From positions 248,001-312,000 of the forward strand of contig JAFGUF010000031.1 in NCBI GenBank assembly GCA_016938675.1: a stretch of 64,000 nt of DNA, in the 5' to 3' direction. The position numbers and the translations under genes were made by a program. This DNA is from Clostridia bacterium (GTDB lineage: Bacteria; Bacillota; Clostridia; Christensenellales; UMGS416). Shown piece by piece: positions 3,296 through 13,683 of this stretch. How positions within the stretch are numbered: position 1 is the stretch's first letter; each line of letters starts with the position of its first letter. Below the pieces are notes generated by a model, which made no database searches, had not been told where the DNA came from, and saw nothing but the letters and a program-made list of their open reading frames with translations.

Positions 3296-4648
3296 ATGCC
3301 TGCCATTCCTGTAAAAGAAGGACAGACTATTAAGACACATATTGTTTCAATTAATGCCCACGGACAGGGAGTAGCAAAAGTAGAGGGCTATGTTGTGTTT
3401 ATTAATGATGCTCTGCCGGGAGAGGACTGCACGGTAAGGGTGACAAAGGCTCTTGCAAAGTATGGCTATGGCAAGCTGATCTCTAGAGATAACGAATCTA
3501 AACTCAGGGTTAAGCCAAAATGCGCTGACTACAATAGCTGCGGAGGCTGCCACCTGCAGCACATCAGCTACAAAGGCCAGCTGCTGCTAAAGCAAAAAAA
3601 TGTGATGGATGCATTCAGCAAAGCCAGGCTGGACATAAAGGATAAAATACTCCCTACCATAGGCATGAATAACCCGTGGCACTACAGGAACAAAGTAGTC
3701 TTCAATATTGAGAAGAAAAAAGGCAATGCGGCTATGGGCATGTATGGCGCTGGCAGCCATCAGCTGGCTGAAATAGACCAATGTCATATAATAGATGAAA
3801 AGCTCAATGTTTTGCTTACTGTGGTGCGTGCGCACCTAAAATATCTCTACGCTAAGGAGGCTCTTTCTGTGCTGCCATTTGACAAGGTGTTTGGCAGGGT
3901 GGGCAAAGATAGACAGATGATGGCCGGGGTTATAGGCAGCGGCGATGTACCCAGATATATTGATTCGTTGGTTGTTAACCTACGCAGGGCAAATAATGAC
4001 ATCGTATCAATTTTTCACAACAAGTCAAATGATGACAGCGGCAATCTATCAAGAGATAATACCTTCCTTTGGGGCAGGACCGCGATTGAAGGCGGAATAG
4101 GCGGGATGGAATTTGATATTTCTCCCAATTCATTTTTTCAGGTAAATACTTCTCAGACACTTAAGCTCTATGACACAGTGAAGGAATGCTGTGCGCTCAC
4201 CGGAAGTGAAACTGTATTTGACCTTTACTGCGGAGTGGGGACTATAGGAATGCATTTGGCAGACGGCGCAAAAAAGGTATACGGGATTGAGTCCGTTGTG
4301 GAGTCCGTGGAGGATGCACAAAAGAACGCCAAAAGAAACAATGTACGCAATATTGAATTCCTAAAGGGCGACTGCGAGAAGATGCTGCCGTCGCTTGTTA
4401 ATTCGGATATCCGGCCGGACGTTATAATAATGGACCCTCCCAGAAAAGGAAGCAGCGCAAAGCTGCTGGATGTGATAGCAAAAACCGAGTGTAAAAAGGT
4501 GGTTTACGTTTCCTGCAACCCTGCAACACTTGCTAGGGATGCAAAGATACTTGGCGATAAAGGCTACAGCATAGAAAAAGTCCAGCCAGTTGATATGTTT
4601 CCGCATACTTACCATGTTGAGTGTGTTTGTTTGCTGACCAGGCACTAG
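3296..4648 (+). CDS. rlmD: 23S rRNA (uracil-C5)-methyltransferase, RlmD/TrmA family
   Basis: SAM-dependent RNA m5U methyltransferase of 450 residues. An N-terminal TRAM RNA-binding domain (about 8-65) is followed by the iron-sulfur motif C76-x5-C82-GG-C85-HLQH and a likely fourth ligand in DQCHII. The Rossmann domain has FDLYCGVGTIG for SAM and IIMDPPRKGS, and the catalytic cysteine lies in VYVSCNPATLARD near the end. Paralogues in Gram-positive bacteria (RlmCD, RlmD, TrmA-like) differ in target base, so the exact uridine is uncertain. AAAGGAG lies upstream of the ATG. Confidence 0.88.
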   Translation: MPAIPVKEGQTIKTHIVSINAHGQGVAKVEGYVVFINDALPGEDCTVRVTKALAKYGYGKLISRDNESKLRVKPKCADYNSCGGCHLQHISYKGQLLLKQKNVMDAFSKARLDIKDKILPTIGMNNPWHYRNKVVFNIEKKKGNAAMGMYGAGSHQLAEIDQCHIIDEKLNVLLTVVRAHLKYLYAKEALSVLPFDKVFGRVGKDRQMMAGVIGSGDVPRYIDSLVVNLRRANNDIVSIFHNKSNDDSGNLSRDNTFLWGRTAIEGGIGGMEFDISPNSFFQVNTSQTLKLYDTVKECCALTGSETVFDLYCGVGTIGMHLADGAKKVYGIESVVESVEDAQKNAKRNNVRNIEFLKGDCEKMLPSLVNSDIRPDVIIMDPPRKGSSAKLLDVIAKTECKKVVYVSCNPATLARDAKILGDKGYSIEKVQPVDMFPHTYHVECVCLLTRH

Positions 4649-4665
4649 CGAATGTAATAAAGGTT

Positions 4666-4704
4666 CTCATACTATACTCAGCCAGATAGTTATATGAGTT
4701 TTTA
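4666..4704 (+). terminator. Possible terminator after rlmD
   Basis: CTCATACTAT and ATAGTTATATGAG can pair with a small bulge and are followed by TTTTTAG. The remainder of the 245-base gap up to 4893 shows no recognisable element. Confidence 0.35.
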
Positions 4705-4893
4705 GTCTGTTAAAAAGAAATAGTACTTTCTGATCACCTATTAAAAGTGCACTTTGCAAAAATAGTCGAGCAATTTAGCAAAAGATAGGTTGCTTGTATA
4801 TGGATTGTGAAGTAATTTGAATGTCATATTGATATGTTAAGAACAAACTAATACAAAGTAACAGTGTAAATTATTAATAAGGAGAATCTTATT

Positions 4894-5299
4894 TTGAAAT
4901 ATTCAGGGTCGTGCCTTTGCGGTGAAGTCACTTTCGAAATAGAAGGAGATTTTGAAGATTTTTATCTTTGTCATTGCGAGCGATGCCGAAAGGATACAGG
5001 TTCAGCACATGCAGCCAATCTGTTTTCCTCTACAGCAAAGTTAAAAATGGCTCACTGGCCAAGAAAAATCTAAAACTTTTAACTTTCGCTCAGAAGGGCA
5101 CATAAAATGTTTCTGTACAATTTGCGGGTCGGCTCTCCCCAACATACAAATGGATGGTAAACTGCTGGTGGTCCCTGCGGGAAGTCTTGATAGTGATATA
5201 AACATAAAGCCAAAAGGACATATATATTATGGACGTAAAGCAAACTGGGATACGGAGCTGGAGAAAGCACCAAAGTTTGAAGAACTCCCGAATGAATAA
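4894..5299 (+). pseudogene. GFA-family zinc protein, broken by a one-base frameshift
   Basis: Starting at TTG 4894 (GGAG upstream), the frame reads SGSCLCGEVTFEI and then CHCERCRKDTGSAH, the CxCG and CHCxxCRK zinc motifs of the GFA (glutathione-dependent formaldehyde-activating enzyme/centromere protein V-like) family. It stops at 5071-5073. From about 5047 the +1-shifted frame continues the same domain: CFCTICGSALPN (third zinc motif) and on to the stop at 5297-5299. Removing one A from the AAAAA run at 5043-5047 restores one reading frame of about 134 residues. Either a true inactivating mutation or a sequencing error in a homopolymer. Intact members are small Zn proteins of mostly unknown substrate. 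Confidence 0.8.
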
Positions 5300-5344
5300 A
5301 AATAAGAATACTTGATATATTGTGATAGAGTGGGAGGAGTAACC

Positions 5345-7303
5345 TTGAAAAGAGCATACTATTCAAGTAATGTGAATGAATTTTTACAAAAAAGCAATTT
5401 CGCCATATTTGGTGAAATAACAAGTAATGATCAATTTGCATCTGAAGATTTGCAGAAAAACACATGGAAAAAAGAAATTGAAATATTGAAACGGGAACTT
5501 GCCGATTTAGAAGACGGGCATTTATTATTTGAATATACTATTCCTCGTATAGGTAATAGAATAGATAACGTTCTTTTATATAAAGGTATAGTCTTTCTTT
5601 TGGAGTTCAAGGTTGGGGAAAAAAGATATCCGAATTATGCTATTGAACAAGTAACGGATTATGCCTTAGATTTAAGCTATTTTCACAAAGAAAGCCATGA
5701 TAAGCTTTTGGTTCCGATTCTTATAAGCACAAAAGCTCCAGAGAAGTTTCAGAAAGTCGAATGGATAAAAAATAATATTCTTGAACCTTGTTGTTGCAAC
5801 GAATTCAATATTGGAAAATGCATTTCTCAGGTAACGTCGGTTTTCAAAAGAGATAAGTTTAGTTATGAAGATTGGACCAATTCTATATATATGCCTACAC
5901 CAACTATCATTGAGGCTGCGCAGGCATTGTATATGGGCCATAACGTCAAGGATATTTCTAGAAGCGATGCAACAGCAAAAAATCTAAATCATACAACGAA
6001 TGCTATAAATCAAATAATTGATTATAGTAAAGCTAATGATAAAAAATCCATTTGCTTTGTTACTGGTGTTCCAGGCGCGGGCAAAACTTTAGCGGGGCTT
6101 AATATAGCTATCGAGCGGCAAAAAGTAGATGAAGAAGAACATGCGGTTTTCTTATCTGGAAACGGACCATTAGTAAATGTTTTGCAAGAAGCCCTGGCAC
6201 GTGATGATGTGCAAAGAAATGGCGTTAAAAAAACGGAAGCATCGAGGAAAGCAAAAGAATTCATTCAAATTATTCACCACTTTAGAGATGACGCGATTTC
6301 AGTAAACACACCCCCTATTGAGAGAGTTGCAATATTTGATGAAGCACAGAGAGCTTGGGATGAGAGAAACTTGGCTGACTTTATGAAAAGAAAAAAGGGC
6401 GTTTTGGATTTTAATATGTCAGAGCCAGAATTTTTGATAAGCATACTTAATCGGCATAAAGGATGGACCACAATAATATGCTTAATAGGTGGAGGACAAG
6501 AGATTAACAAGGGTGAATCAGCAGGGATTTCTGGGTGGTTTGAATCTTTAAGAAAGAATTACAGTGATTGGGATGTTTACATATCTGATAAAATAACGGA
6601 TGCTGAATACTCAAAAGGCAATGATTTTTCAGAACTAACAAAGGGGATTAATTACGAAATTATTGAAGACCTACATCTGGCTGTATCGCTTCGTTCTTTT
6701 AGAAGTGAGAATGTTGCATCTTTCGTTAAGGCTCTTCTAGATATAGACAAGGCTAAGGCTAAAAAACTATACGAACAATTTAACCAAGATTATCCAATAT
6801 GTATCACAAGAGATATTGAGAAAGCTAAAAACTGGGTTAAGGAGAAAGCAAACGGTTCAGAAAGGTTTGGGATTACTGCGAGCTCTGGCGCTAGAAGGCT
6901 AAGGAAGTATGGGATATGGGTGCAAAATAATATTGACGCGCCCAACTGGTTTCTTAATGGTAAAGACGATGTGCGCTCCTCATTTTTTTTAGAAGAAACT
7001 GCCACGGAGTTTGATATTCAGGGTCTGGAGCTTGATTGGACAATTGTTTGCTGGGGTGCAAATTTTAGATTTAACAAAAACTGTTTCGAATACTACAATT
7101 TTAACGGAACAAAGTGGCAGAACATAAATAAAGAAGAGAACCTGCTTTATCTAAAAAATGCTTATCGCGTACTTCTGACTCGGGCGAGACAAGGTTTAGT
7201 AATATTTATTCCAAGTGGCGACGAAAATGATGTTACTATGCAGCCTGATTTTTATGATGGCGCATATAATTACTTAAAGGAAATTGGGATAGAAGAAATC
7301 TAA
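5345..7303 (+). CDS. Nuclease-helicase fusion: PD-(D/E)XK domain plus DUF2075 SF1 helicase
   Basis: A 652-residue protein counted from TTG 5345, chosen because GGGAGGA lies seven bases upstream; an in-frame start at 5312 lacks such a site. Residues 60-180 look like a PD-(D/E)XK nuclease: Asp74 (RIDN), then Glu87-Phe-Lys89 in a hydrophobic strand, then a helix with Gln and Tyr (EQVTDYALDL). Residues 235-640 form a superfamily 1 NTPase of the DUF2075 type: Walker A GVPGAGKT (241-248), Walker B FDEAQRAW (DEAQ 332-335), a GGGQEI motif III, FDIQGLELD, and motif VI RVLLTRAR (from about 608). Helicase-nuclease fusions are frequent in antiviral and repair systems, but no defined role is assignable here. 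It stands alone, in visibly AT-rich DNA after a broken gene, which suggests transfer. Confidence 0.8.
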   Translation: MKRAYYSSNVNEFLQKSNFAIFGEITSNDQFASEDLQKNTWKKEIEILKRELADLEDGHLLFEYTIPRIGNRIDNVLLYKGIVFLLEFKVGEKRYPNYAIEQVTDYALDLSYFHKESHDKLLVPILISTKAPEKFQKVEWIKNNILEPCCCNEFNIGKCISQVTSVFKRDKFSYEDWTNSIYMPTPTIIEAAQALYMGHNVKDISRSDATAKNLNHTTNAINQIIDYSKANDKKSICFVTGVPGAGKTLAGLNIAIERQKVDEEEHAVFLSGNGPLVNVLQEALARDDVQRNGVKKTEASRKAKEFIQIIHHFRDDAISVNTPPIERVAIFDEAQRAWDERNLADFMKRKKGVLDFNMSEPEFLISILNRHKGWTTIICLIGGGQEINKGESAGISGWFESLRKNYSDWDVYISDKITDAEYSKGNDFSELTKGINYEIIEDLHLAVSLRSFRSENVASFVKALLDIDKAKAKKLYEQFNQDYPICITRDIEKAKNWVKEKANGSERFGITASSGARRLRKYGIWVQNNIDAPNWFLNGKDDVRSSFFLEETATEFDIQGLELDWTIVCWGANFRFNKNCFEYYNFNGTKWQNINKEENLLYLKNAYRVLLTRARQGLVIFIPSGDENDVTMQPDFYDGAYNYLKEIGIEEI

Positions 7304-9522: not shown

Positions 9523-10485
9523 ATGGATATAAAGAAATTTTACTCAATTTGCATACAGGGAAATGTGCTGGATGCGCTCCAATACCTGCAGTCCTTTGAA
9601 AACAAAGATGAAGAAACGCTTCAGATTGAGCAGAAATATATTAAAAGGTTTGTAGACAAAGACGAGGCATATGAAATTGATTCGGATGATCCTTTTATAA
9701 AAGAGATTGTGCTGGAATATTATAAATACTTCATTTCGGTGCTTACAGGGGATGATTCGGTTCTTGCTGAAAAGCAATTAGCCACAGGCTTGAGCAAGAT
9801 AATAGATGCTGATGACGAAACAGATTTGAACAAAATCGAAGAGAAACTGAAAACTATCTTCGAAGGAAAAGGCTATAATTTTCTTGGTGGGGTAACTATA
9901 CCACACAGAGGCCCGTATATATGGAAGGAGACAAAAAAGCAGGAGTTCCATGTGGAGCTGCCCTGCGACAGGCAAAAGGTAACTGTGTTTTTCATGTCTG
10001 GCTTCATTATGCTAAGCTGGCTTCATTTTGCCACCTTCGGGAAGCACCATACTGGCGGCTGGGCGAAAAGCGAAGGAATATATTATGTAGTCCCTGGTGA
10101 AGAAACAATTGATACGGACTCCGATAAATTCCAGGTGTGGTTTCTAAAGCATGAAGGACAGCACCTAAGTGATTTTTCGAAGCACCCAAATCTTAAAGCA
10201 GTAGGGTTGGAATACAGGGCAAAACTTACAGAGCTTATTTATTATCAGGAGACACATTTAAGGCTGGAATCCTTTATAAACGAATCAAAAAATGATAACT
10301 CTCTTTCGCATCCCTATTCATCGTATTTGATTGTAAAAAGGCTGTCGAAAATTTTCTTTGGTGAAGAATTTACGGATGATATGGAAAAATGGAAAGCGAT
10401 AGACAAAGAATTGATACAAAGGCAAGCATATAACCTATTTATAAGAAGTGAGGAAATACTAAGCGGTAAAGAGCAGAACTCATAG
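9523..10485 (+). CDS. Uncharacterised protein with a HEXXH metal-site motif
   Basis: I do not recognise the family. The 320-residue protein has no signal peptide or membrane segment. The N-terminal 120 residues are acidic and probably helical. Residues 210-214 read HEGQH, matching the HEXXH motif of zinc metallopeptidases, in the context FLKHEGQHLSDF, with Glu230 sixteen residues later (GLEYRAKLTELIY) as a possible third ligand. This suggests a gluzincin-like cytoplasmic enzyme, but a single motif match can be chance. GAGGAAT precedes the ATG and the gene follows the YciI gene closely. Confidence 0.6.
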   Translation: MDIKKFYSICIQGNVLDALQYLQSFENKDEETLQIEQKYIKRFVDKDEAYEIDSDDPFIKEIVLEYYKYFISVLTGDDSVLAEKQLATGLSKIIDADDETDLNKIEEKLKTIFEGKGYNFLGGVTIPHRGPYIWKETKKQEFHVELPCDRQKVTVFFMSGFIMLSWLHFATFGKHHTGGWAKSEGIYYVVPGEETIDTDSDKFQVWFLKHEGQHLSDFSKHPNLKAVGLEYRAKLTELIYYQETHLRLESFINESKNDNSLSHPYSSYLIVKRLSKIFFGEEFTDDMEKWKAIDKELIQRQAYNLFIRSEEILSGKEQNS

Positions 10486-10570
10486 CGGAAACATGCTTCA
10501 AAGAGAACATAAAAAGCAAAAGATAAAGCCTTAGAATGCCGGCATATAGAAAGAAATAAGGGATTGGCTA

Positions 10571-11116
10571 ATGGAAGACTCTGAAAGATTGACATATAGA
10601 CTGATGGATTCAGATGATTTTGAATTTTATTATCTGCTAAATAGCGACAGGCAGGTTATGAAGTACGCTTATGTACAAGCCTATGAGACAGAAACGCAGG
10701 CGAAGCAGGGATTTGATAAGGTTATTTCGGAGCAAAGCGACAGCAGTCTTGGGAAGCAGTATATAGTCAGCATAAAAGGCACAATGGAGCAAATAGGAAT
10801 TGTGGACTACGTTGTAAAAGAAAATAACAGTTTCAGCAAAACCTGCGAAATAGGATACTTTATTTTGCCTGAGTACTGGGGAAGAGGATATGCAGCCGAG
10901 ATGGGGTCAGTGCTAGTTAATTATCTTTTCTCGGACGGCGTTGCACAAAAGCTAACAGCATCCTGCCATGAAGATAATAAAGCATCAGAAAAAATAATGA
11001 TTAAGCTAGGCATGAAAAAATCAGGAGTTAATGAAAGAGCGCGGCTAAAAGGCGGAAAATATTCAGATGAGATATGCTATAGCCTTACGGCGGATGAATG
11101 GATGAAGGAGTGCTGA
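10571..11116 (+). CDS. GNAT-family N-acetyltransferase (RimJ/RimL-like)
   Basis: A 181-residue acetyltransferase. ILPEYWGRGYAAEMG is the acetyl-CoA pyrophosphate-binding motif A (R/QxxGxG/A), and ENKASEKIM-type residues (EDNKASEKIMIKLGMKKSG) form the following helix of the RimJ/RimL branch. Acceptor may be a protein N-terminus or a small amine; not readable from sequence. AAATAAGGG lies upstream of the ATG. It ends eight bases before the HEAT-repeat gene and may share its transcript. Confidence 0.82.
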   Translation: MEDSERLTYRLMDSDDFEFYYLLNSDRQVMKYAYVQAYETETQAKQGFDKVISEQSDSSLGKQYIVSIKGTMEQIGIVDYVVKENNSFSKTCEIGYFILPEYWGRGYAAEMGSVLVNYLFSDGVAQKLTASCHEDNKASEKIMIKLGMKKSGVNERARLKGGKYSDEICYSLTADEWMKEC

Positions 11117-11124
11117 TATAATAA

Positions 11125-11961
11125 ATGCCTGTAATGCCTGAAAATATTATAAATGAAGCCAGAGTCATTGTTGAAGTTGATTTCAAAAACATATCCGATG
11201 ATTCAGACATCGCAGAGCTTGAAAAAAGAATAGAAGCATTGATTGGATTGCTGCATGATAATATAGACGATAAAAAGCGTATATCATACGGAATTACTTA
11301 TGTAATAAACATTCTAAGCAAAATGCTATATGAAAAGTGCGTTTCCCCATACGATGTGGGAATGCTGCTTTATAAAAAAATGCAAAGCTACAGAGTGCGC
11401 TGCCTAGGGCTTGGCGTGCTTTCCCATGTAGGCGTAGAAGAGCCTGATGCTATCCTACCCATTTTAGCTGAAGCTGCCTCTTCCGATCAGTGGGAAACCA
11501 AAGAGTTTGTGCAGATGTTCGTGAGAAAGATAATGAAGGTGCATCCCGAAAAAGCGAGGTTGTTTTTGATCAAGATGGCAAAGTCTGAGGACGCCAACAA
11601 AAGGAGGCTGGCAAGCGAGTCTTTTCGTCCCGTAGCGGAAAACAAATGGATAAACGATAACCCTGAATTTTCACTTTCTGTTCTAAGGCTGCTTTTTAAG
11701 GAGAGTGACTCGTACCCTAGAGTATCCGTTGGTAACAACCTAAGCGACTTGTCACGAAAGCACCCGGAGCTGATTTTCTCAGTGGTTGAGGAGCTGATGG
11801 CTCTTAATGATAAAAATTCAAAATTCATTGCGCACAGAGCCTGCCGAAATCTTGTTATAAAGTACCCTTTAAGGGTTATGGATATACTGGGCTGTGATGA
11901 ATATAAATATAAAAATAGGAACTATAAAAGAAGTGAAATAGGGATATCCGGCAATGAATAG
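11125..11961 (+). CDS. HEAT-repeat protein resembling DNA alkylation-repeat proteins
   Basis: A 278-residue, mostly alpha-helical protein. From about residue 85 it shows repeated helical pairs, e.g. KRRLASESFRPVAENKW, YPRVSVGNNLSDLSRKHPEL and AHRACRNLVIKYP. These resemble the AlkC/AlkD-type DNA alkylation-repeat scaffold, where HEAT-like repeats grip DNA and excise N3/N7-alkyl purines. The N-terminal 80 residues are not recognised. Catalytic residues are not certain, so a purely structural role is possible. Its end overlaps the next gene by eight bases, implying translational coupling. Confidence 0.62.
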   Translation: MPVMPENIINEARVIVEVDFKNISDDSDIAELEKRIEALIGLLHDNIDDKKRISYGITYVINILSKMLYEKCVSPYDVGMLLYKKMQSYRVRCLGLGVLSHVGVEEPDAILPILAEAASSDQWETKEFVQMFVRKIMKVHPEKARLFLIKMAKSEDANKRRLASESFRPVAENKWINDNPEFSLSVLRLLFKESDSYPRVSVGNNLSDLSRKHPELIFSVVEELMALNDKNSKFIAHRACRNLVIKYPLRVMDILGCDEYKYKNRNYKRSEIGISGNE

Positions 11962-12556
11962 TGAATGGATATTGGCAGTTAGAGCAAAATACGCCAGAAA
12001 GAATAAGATTCTTTTCGACCGACAGAGCGAATGCCTTCAGGAGCTTCTTGTGCTTATTAGTCAGCAAAGGCACAGAACTCTTGTAATGTGGGCGCTTGAA
12101 TGGGCGACTAAATATGCTGACATTCTTAAGGAAAGGCATATTTCTGAAAATAGGATTTACACTGCAATTATCAAATGCAGAAAATGGGCACAAGGCGAAA
12201 TAAAAATGCCGGAAGCAAAAAAAGCAATATTAGATTCTCATGCCGCTGCAAAAATTATGGATAGTGCAAGTGATGCCGCCCTGTGCCATGCTGTAGGGCA
12301 GGCGTGTGCAACAGTACATGTTGAAACGCATGCCATTGGCTTGGCTTTTTATGATCTTAGCGCAATAGTCTTCGAAAAAGGAATTGATAACTGCGTTGAT
12401 GCGGTGGAAAACAGAATTAATGAATATATAGAATCACTTAAGTATTGGGAAAGAAATGTTGATAAAGTTGAATACAAGTGGGCAGAGTTTCTGCTTGATG
12501 ATACAAAGGAGAACAAGGAAAAACTGCTGATGGACAAAACAAAAAGGCAGCATTAA
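11954..12556 (+). CDS. Imm-5-like putative immunity-type protein
   Basis: A 200-residue helical protein. The segment from about residue 60 (AIIKCRKWAQGEIKMPEAKK, then HAAAKIMDSASDAALCHAVGQACATVH) matches the pattern of the Imm-5-like family, named for similarity to polymorphic-toxin immunity proteins, where Ala/His-rich helices repeat. No toxin gene is adjacent. The start overlaps the HEAT-repeat gene by eight bases, so the two products are probably made together. The stop codon lies inside the terminator hairpin that follows. Confidence 0.65.
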   Translation: MNSEWILAVRAKYARKNKILFDRQSECLQELLVLISQQRHRTLVMWALEWATKYADILKERHISENRIYTAIIKCRKWAQGEIKMPEAKKAILDSHAAAKIMDSASDAALCHAVGQACATVHVETHAIGLAFYDLSAIVFEKGIDNCVDAVENRINEYIESLKYWERNVDKVEYKWAEFLLDDTKENKEKLLMDKTKRQH

Positions 12557-12574
12557 AAACACTGCCTTTTAATA
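12542..12574. terminator. Bidirectional terminator between convergent genes
   Basis: AAAAGGCAG (12542-12550) pairs with CTGCCTTTT (12562-12570), with T's on the + side and A's before the stem. It serves the Imm-5-like gene and the convergent dioxygenase gene and overlaps the former's stop. Confidence 0.75.
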
Positions 12575-12576
12575 AA

Positions 12577-13386
12577 TCATCTCCAAAGAAAAGCAACGCT
12601 TCTCTTGCCTGCGATGTAATCATCAAATACCAGTTCACCTTTTCTGCCAGTAGCTGCAGCACATACATGCAGCGGCAGCAGATGCTCCGATCGCGGATGG
12701 CAGTACCTTGCATTAGGAGCCGTTTCCCAGTTTATCAATTTGTCTTCTCGTATATTCTGCGGCATATCGCCCGTGCAGACCTCAATCAGCCAATCCTGAA
12801 AGGCGTCATTTCTTATATCCTGGTTTTTATCATTTAGCCTGAATTCCATAAGGTTGTGGAAGGAAAAGCCGGAGCCTATAAGGAGTATATTTTTATCTTT
12901 AAGCTTGCTTAATGCTTTCCCAAGGCGTATATGTTCCGTTTCATAAAGGTTGTGGAGCAGTGACACCTGAAAGCAGGGAATATCAGCATCCGGGTACATC
13001 ATCATAAGGGGTATAAAAAGCCCGTGGTCAAAGCCTCTCTCGTCATCTGCCGTACATGGTATATTTTCAGCTTTAAATATTTCTAGAATTTCCTTCGTCA
13101 GTTCCGGGCTGCCCTTTGCGGGATAGTTTATTTGGTATGCTTCCTCCGGGAAGCGGTAGTAGTCGTATAGCATCGAAGGAGATGCACCTGTCTGCACTGC
13201 AACATTGCTTTCTTCCCAGTGCGCACTTATTACGACTATTGCATCCGGCCTTTTAATAAGCGAAGGCAGGTTTTTCATAAATACATTCATCCTGTAGTGG
13301 CTTGGGTCATTGAGAATAGGCATTGGCCCGCCGCCATGAGAAAAGTATACAATCTGCATTGCTGATTTGTTTTCACTAGTATTCAT
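12577..13386 (-). CDS. Class III extradiol dioxygenase-like protein (DODA/YgiD type)
   Basis: A 269-residue member of the LigB/4,5-DOPA dioxygenase family. Visible family marks are FSHGGGPMPI near the start (first metal His), VVISAHWEESN, NYPAKGSPEL, ERGFDHGLFIPLMMMYP and the late HPRSEHLLPLHVCAAAT with further His ligands. The family uses non-haem Fe(II) or Zn to open catechol rings or, in bacterial YgiD, acts on DOPA in vitro; the physiological substrate in an anaerobe is unclear because ring opening needs O2. AAAGGA precedes the ATG. Its promoter region is shared back-to-back with the NiCo-riboswitch promoter. Confidence 0.82.
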   Translation of the reverse strand: MNTSENKSAMQIVYFSHGGGPMPILNDPSHYRMNVFMKNLPSLIKRPDAIVVISAHWEESNVAVQTGASPSMLYDYYRFPEEAYQINYPAKGSPELTKEILEIFKAENIPCTADDERGFDHGLFIPLMMMYPDADIPCFQVSLLHNLYETEHIRLGKALSKLKDKNILLIGSGFSFHNLMEFRLNDKNQDIRNDAFQDWLIEVCTGDMPQNIREDKLINWETAPNARYCHPRSEHLLPLHVCAAATGRKGELVFDDYIAGKRSVAFLWR

Positions 13387-13494
13387 ATGGAAGTCCTTTC
13401 TAAATTAATAGTATCACTAAAAATAATTGTCTGCAATCGCTGCGTGAAGTATATTAAAAATAATAGATTTTCCTTATAAAAAATGGCTTTTGCA

Positions 13495-13523
13495 TTGACA
13501 CTAAAAGGATAATTAGTTATAAT
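13495..13523 (+). promoter_or_regulatory. Consensus promoter for the NiCo riboswitch transcript
   Basis: TTGACA (13495-13500), 17 bases, TATAAT (13518-13523): a perfect sigma-A type promoter. Transcription would begin near 13530, about 30 bases before the aptamer. Confidence 0.85.
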
Positions 13524-13558
13524 AACGAAGATACTTTTGAGCATATAGCGGAATACTA

Positions 13559-13652
13559 AGTACAAACTGAGCAGGCAGTGATTATTATCATGAAGCCGGG
13601 TTGAAAAACAGCAGATAAAATGTGTATAACATCTGTGGGACAGTAGTTTACT
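13559..13652 (+). promoter_or_regulatory. NiCo (czcD) riboswitch aptamer
   Basis: The sequence ACTGAGCAGGCAGTGA, ATGAAGCCGGGTTG, CAGCAGAT and ACATCTGTGGGACAGT follows the conserved order of the NiCo riboswitch, including the paired GCAGGCA and GCCGGG metal-binding modules. P1 forms between AGTACAAACT (13559-13568) and AGTTTACT (13645-13652). Known members bind Co(II)/Ni(II) (and probably Fe(II)) cooperatively and switch on metal exporters. The gene downstream is a cation diffusion facilitator, as expected. Confidence 0.92.
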
Positions 13653-13683
13653 GATTACTATCCTTCAGGTGTTTTTTATTTTC
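13629..13683 (+). terminator. Riboswitch-controlled terminator
   Basis: ACATCTG (13629-13635) pairs with CAGGTGT (13666-13672), and GGGA..AGTAGT with ATTACT..TCCT inside it, giving a long hairpin before TTTTTTATTTT. Its 5' arm uses the last aptamer helix and the 3' strand of P1, so folding of the metal-bound aptamer and of the terminator exclude each other: an ON switch. Confidence 0.85.

Follow-up and report, generated by a model that had tools for sequence, protein, structure and literature searches.

Does the solitary gene at 5345-7303, whose product appears to carry a nuclease and a helicase on one chain, serve in defense against phages, as the first-pass annotation proposed, or in another branch of nucleic acid metabolism? 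The reading frame is present and intact on the plus strand of the window, by which we mean the whole 64,000-nucleotide stretch of DNA analyzed here, and the argument starts from the following features:

5345-7303, plus strand: PDC-S41 family nuclease-helicase gene, 652 amino acids plus stop, TTG start
About 5331-5338, plus strand: Shine-Dalgarno-like GGGAGGAG, read from the sequence, 6 nt before TTG 5345
5345-5968, plus strand: N-terminal domain, residues 1-208, with a predicted PD-(D/E)XK fold in residues ~35-166 (AlphaFold2 pLDDT 88)
6047-7246, plus strand: predicted SF1 helicase/SLFN-g3 (DUF2075) ATPase, residues ~235-634, from Pfam, structure matches and motifs

The longest frame begins further upstream, at TTG 5312, but 5345 is the likelier start because the strong ribosome-binding site GGGAGGAG directly precedes it and because homologs begin with an MKRAYY-like N-terminus; the TTG start assigned in the first-pass annotation is therefore retained. 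The 652-residue protein was modeled at full length by AlphaFold2 with a pLDDT of 86.

A comparison with PADLOC identified a match to PDC-S41 of 970-973 bits (8e-293) covering about 652 of 657 positions, that is, the whole length, and no partner gene is present in the window, in keeping with the single-gene organization of this family. No difference from PDC-S41 was found in the full-length profile, the gene number or the nuclease-helicase architecture. Judged by its sequence, the gene thus belongs to a candidate family that had been catalogued before and is not a new discovery. PDC-S41 is listed in PADLOC as a computational phage defense candidate, with a putative role in defense. A 'guilt-by-embedding' screen gave rise to the PDC families, which are described as putative and unvalidated in studies relying on PADLOC (PMC12988326, PMC10855318). 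A full-text search on 'PDC-S41' returned no paper and hence no experimental test, with preprints and most subscription papers outside its scope, so that a published test could be missed. Searches of NCBIfam and PHROGs with the protein gave no informative match, phmmer against PDB sequences gave zero matches, and the viral_contigs search gave none. Profile matches to the PDB were weak, confined to the Walker A region and best to a potassium channel, and were set aside as not useful.

Structural comparison supports a PD-(D/E)XK nuclease fold for the modeled N-terminal domain. Most of the top-ranking structural rows for the N-terminal model are PD-(D/E)XK enzymes and agree with the core fold; Can2 is the best match (VIA Z 9.1), and Cdn1, McrC, EndoMS, NucC, Hjc and FokI are also found. 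Foldseek returned mostly the same enzymes, at weak E-values (best 0.004). The nuclease motif residues are E63, D74, E87-x-K89 and Q102-xxx-Y106. In an alignment of 45 sequences, with homologs from many phyla that are 42-79% identical to the window protein and a mean column identity of 59%, the invariant positions of this domain are E63, R68, R72, D74, E87-F88-K89, Q102, D105 and Y106. A plasmid homolog from Exiguobacterium, with 28% identity, keeps E63, D74, E87, K89, Q102 and Y106 as well.

For the remainder of the chain, Pfam gave SLFN-g3_helicase (PF09848, formerly DUF2075; 2e-86, residues 245-634), its sole match above the cut-off in the whole protein, and the motifs of that family are all intact: Walker A (GVPGAGKT, 241-248), the DEAQ box (332-335) and motif VI (around 608-615). 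Across the same 45 sequences GVPGAGKT, D332, E333, Q335, G560, E562, R608, R613 and R615 are invariant, and A334 of the DEAQ box is nearly so. The C-terminal part matches the structures of UvrD (Z 18.2) and SLFN11 (Z 16.7), and also those of HelD, Pif1, RecD2 and SLFN14. The assignment of the two domains combines the fold, the conserved motifs and the profile of the family, and computation shows two predicted enzymatic folds with intact active sites. The first-pass annotation had picked out from the letters a nuclease-like motif set (Asp74, Glu87-x-Lys89 and a Gln/Tyr helix) and a DUF2075 SF1 NTPase with intact Walker A, DEAQ and motif VI. Both descriptions hold, the former through the invariance of D74, E87-x-K89 and Q102/Y106 and through the structural matches to Can2 and other PD-(D/E)XK proteins that such a reading leads one to expect, the latter through Pfam, the SF1 fold and the invariant motifs.

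A validated comparison is Nhi (SERP2475) of Staphylococcus epidermidis, a nuclease-helicase encoded by a single gene that both nicks DNA and unwinds it (PMC12904381, PMC11811056), with phage SSB as its presumed trigger (PMC12904381). The window protein likewise has a nuclease plus a helicase on a single chain. No Nhi-labelled match was among the PADLOC matches to E 1, in a copy of PADLOC that may contain no Nhi model. Gabija (GajAB) and Hachiman (HamAB) also couple a nuclease to a helicase and sense the state of DNA, and GajB weakly resembles the window protein in structure and sequence, but both are two-gene systems, whereas here everything is on one chain. The GajA nuclease is moreover of the TOPRIM type, unlike the PD-(D/E)XK domain of the window protein. 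McrC, Can2 and NucC have the PD-(D/E)XK fold in common with it but carry other partner domains, and the window protein has neither a CARF domain nor an McrB partner. By analogy with Nhi, Gabija and Hachiman, we infer DNA as the substrate, the kind of trigger and the outcome, protection of the cell. The helicase would load on aberrant or foreign DNA, for example at forks, free ends or stretches of single strand; it would then use ATP hydrolysis to move or unwind the DNA, which the attached nuclease would cut in passing.

The helicase family could also point toward RNA. Group III Schlafens (SLFN5/11/14) belong to the same family, which Pfam names 'Schlafen group 3, DNA/RNA helicase', and nearly the full length of the model can be aligned with human SLFN11/14, as would be expected of a Schlafen-like effector that acts on tRNA, rRNA or phage RNA and shuts down translation upon infection. 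The Pfam scan, however, places no Schlafen core (AlbA_2), the RNA-cleaving part, in the window protein, which instead keeps the PD-(D/E)XK catalytic residues, and its closest nuclease-fold matches include many DNases, namely McrC, EndoMS, Hjc and restriction enzymes. We therefore consider an RNA-directed function improbable.

The gene is compositionally foreign. Its GC content is 0.357 against 0.437 +/- 0.025 for the other genes, the lowest among the 35 window genes compared, and its GC3 is 0.302 against 0.472 +/- 0.041 (z -4.1), in agreement with the earlier remark that it is AT-rich against its neighbors. Immediately upstream lies a broken gene, whose family we take to be GFA/CENP-V-like:

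4894-5297, plus strand: frameshifted GFA/CENP-V-like gene, with the frameshift near 5050 and its halves in different frames

It is unlikely to belong to the system. The PDC-S41 gene is further flanked by rlmD (tRNA_U5-meth_tr/TRAM) and by a carbonic anhydrase-like gene, and the surroundings are housekeeping genes. Among the 53 window proteins submitted to PADLOC, the PDC-S41 gene is the one clear defense match, the others being at most two generic matches at 1e-15 (mad2 and mad3 models); the window thus contains no defense island by this measure. The first-pass annotation had described a gene that stands alone, adjoins a broken gene and looks like inserted cargo. Its isolation among the 53 window genes is confirmed, and the broken neighbor is real, although it is weak evidence; the cargo-like character is consistent with the foreign composition and with the patchy, cross-phylum distribution described below. 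Of flanking repeats that could mark an insertion, only short, chance-like pairs were detected in the window, so that boundaries were not found, and a search of the window for tRNA genes found none.

The position behind rlmD recurs. In four loci an rlmD/rumA-family gene immediately precedes the nuclease-helicase gene: the window (3296-5345, with the broken GFA gene between the two) and the homologous loci L012 (6346-8001), L062 (3708-5154) and L067 (3031-4683). The rlmD proteins of these loci are 34-45% identical, as against 79-91% for the first 92 residues of the nuclease-helicases, which argues for separate arrivals beside rlmD. Serine-integrase elements are known to integrate at rumA in streptococci (PMC4701971), and the close homolog in L012 (79% identity) has CcrB-like large serine recombinases (10116-13653) a short way downstream. 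A general insertion hotspot after rlmD was considered and is not supported: 17 related genomes show varied ordinary genes there, with no recurrent integrase, defense gene or mobile cargo obvious by eye.

Among relatives the distribution is patchy. The gene is absent from all seven other genomes of the host family, full or partial copies were found in 7 of 100 relatives by protein search, and the PDC-S41 profile recovered the same seven below 1e-40, some as fragments at contig edges, together with four marginal matches. One genus of the order includes both a genome with the gene and a genome without it. Presence and absence among relatives, the check suggested alongside the initial proposal, thus shows nothing like a strictly conserved core position remote from defense islands. 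Beyond the order, homologs occur in Bacillota, Bacteroidota, Verrucomicrobiota, Planctomycetota, Pseudomonadota, Acidobacteriota and other phyla, and plasmids of Persicobacter, Niallia and Exiguobacterium carry copies. In the tree, a Clostridium copy groups with one from Thermoguttaceae and a Neisseria copy with Flavobacteriia, both with full support, bearing in mind that the rows include MAG contigs and that single placements may reflect binning errors. Two homologs, in L014 (3945-5906) and L060 (8001-9951), are split into two reading frames, as expected of a dispensable, decaying accessory gene.

A tie to defense genes, which would bear on the candidate defense role first proposed, is seen in several other genomes. 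The copy in L013 (78% identity) comes after PDC-S06 and PDC-S53, and the Exiguobacterium plasmid copy adjoins McrBC. In L018 (6258-9950) the gene comes after an MzaE/AIPR-like gene and a C5-methylase, the latter about 20 nt upstream of it, and in L084 (8014-11326) the genes that come after it encode a C5-methylase, a GHKL-like ATPase (so called from its sequence) and a Z1 protein matching MzaC. One genome (G015) carries a common 2.6-kb stretch of 97.5% identity with the PDC-S41 gene at two loci (L086, 5995-8617; L087, 7282-9908) whose flanks differ, with PDC-S13, PDC-S26 and a PbeC/DndD-like gene at one and AbiEii at the other. In L016 a Schlafen AlbA_2 protein is encoded upstream. In L080 the copy has Z1, a pair of NgoFVII-like restriction enzymes and a C5-methylase in its vicinity; this record (MT836127.1, 'Bacteriophage sp.') was the single match of its kind, and we do not take it as evidence for carriage by phages, as the contig consists of restriction-modification genes and looks like a bacterial defense island rather than a phage. 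Most sampled homologs nevertheless lie among ordinary genes, and few of the 127 neighboring genes match PADLOC.

The methylases raise the question of whether the protein is one half of a restriction-like pair, in which self DNA is marked by a C5-methylase and DNA lacking the mark is destroyed by the nuclease-helicase. The gene has such a methylase as its immediate neighbor in L018 and L084 and shares an island with one in L080, yet none lies near the gene in the window or in most sampled loci, and PDC-S41 is catalogued as single-gene, making this arrangement very improbable.

An accessory DNA repair or recombination enzyme, acting like RecB, AddA or DNA2 on host DNA ends with no role in defense, deserves more weight. 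The SF1 helicase is close to the UvrD/AddA folds, the QxxxY motif is of the RecB type, and many copies sit among housekeeping genes; a repair enzyme with a patchy distribution would give much of the pattern reported here, and we count this against the defense reading together with the ordinary surroundings of most homologs and the lack of an island in the window. The gene is nevertheless rare and patchy rather than core, its composition is foreign, copies are disrupted in L014 and L060, and defense neighbors recur, so that a pure repair function appears unlikely. The PDC-S41 match, the invariant residues, the foreign composition, the patchy cross-phylum spread and the defense neighbors elsewhere instead favor a horizontally acquired, single-gene anti-phage (or anti-plasmid) PDC-S41 factor, with a RecB-like PD-(D/E)XK nuclease and an SF1 translocase on one chain, and we regard this as the probable function.

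The same models provide a lead concerning animal Schlafens. When the full model is aligned with SLFN11 and SLFN14, residues about 7 to 624-628 fall onto SLFN about 396-912, which places the nuclease domain on the Schlafen linker. Taken alone, the N-terminal domain (residues 9-183, window 5369-5893) matches the SLFN14 linker (400-553) over 122 residues at 3.8 A with a Z of 6.3, a value in the range where, by the structure tool's own warning, a match may reflect a common arrangement; the match stands in a list otherwise composed mostly of PD-(D/E)XK proteins. Profile searches gave no sequence link between the nuclease domain and the linker. The linker has been described as a domain of unknown function (PMC8789055), and the passages on it in PMC9482658 mention no nuclease-like fold. 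The resemblance of the modeled nuclease domain to the SLFN14 linker is thus tentative, a lead and not a result. It is conceivable, though we consider it doubtful, that animal group III Schlafens and PDC-S41 proteins are related through the linker-plus-helicase half of the former, and that the linker is a PD-(D/E)XK nuclease with a lost active site. We infer that the Schlafen SWAVDL motif might then be the counterpart of the W41 helix (A-W-x-x-[Q/E]-I), which is invariant in PDC-S41.

For the family, the value of the copy described here lies in its being an intact member of a widespread single-gene candidate family with clear, testable active sites. If the Schlafen link is true, it would connect a bacterial nuclease-helicase with an antiviral family of animals and would explain a human domain that at present has no explanation.
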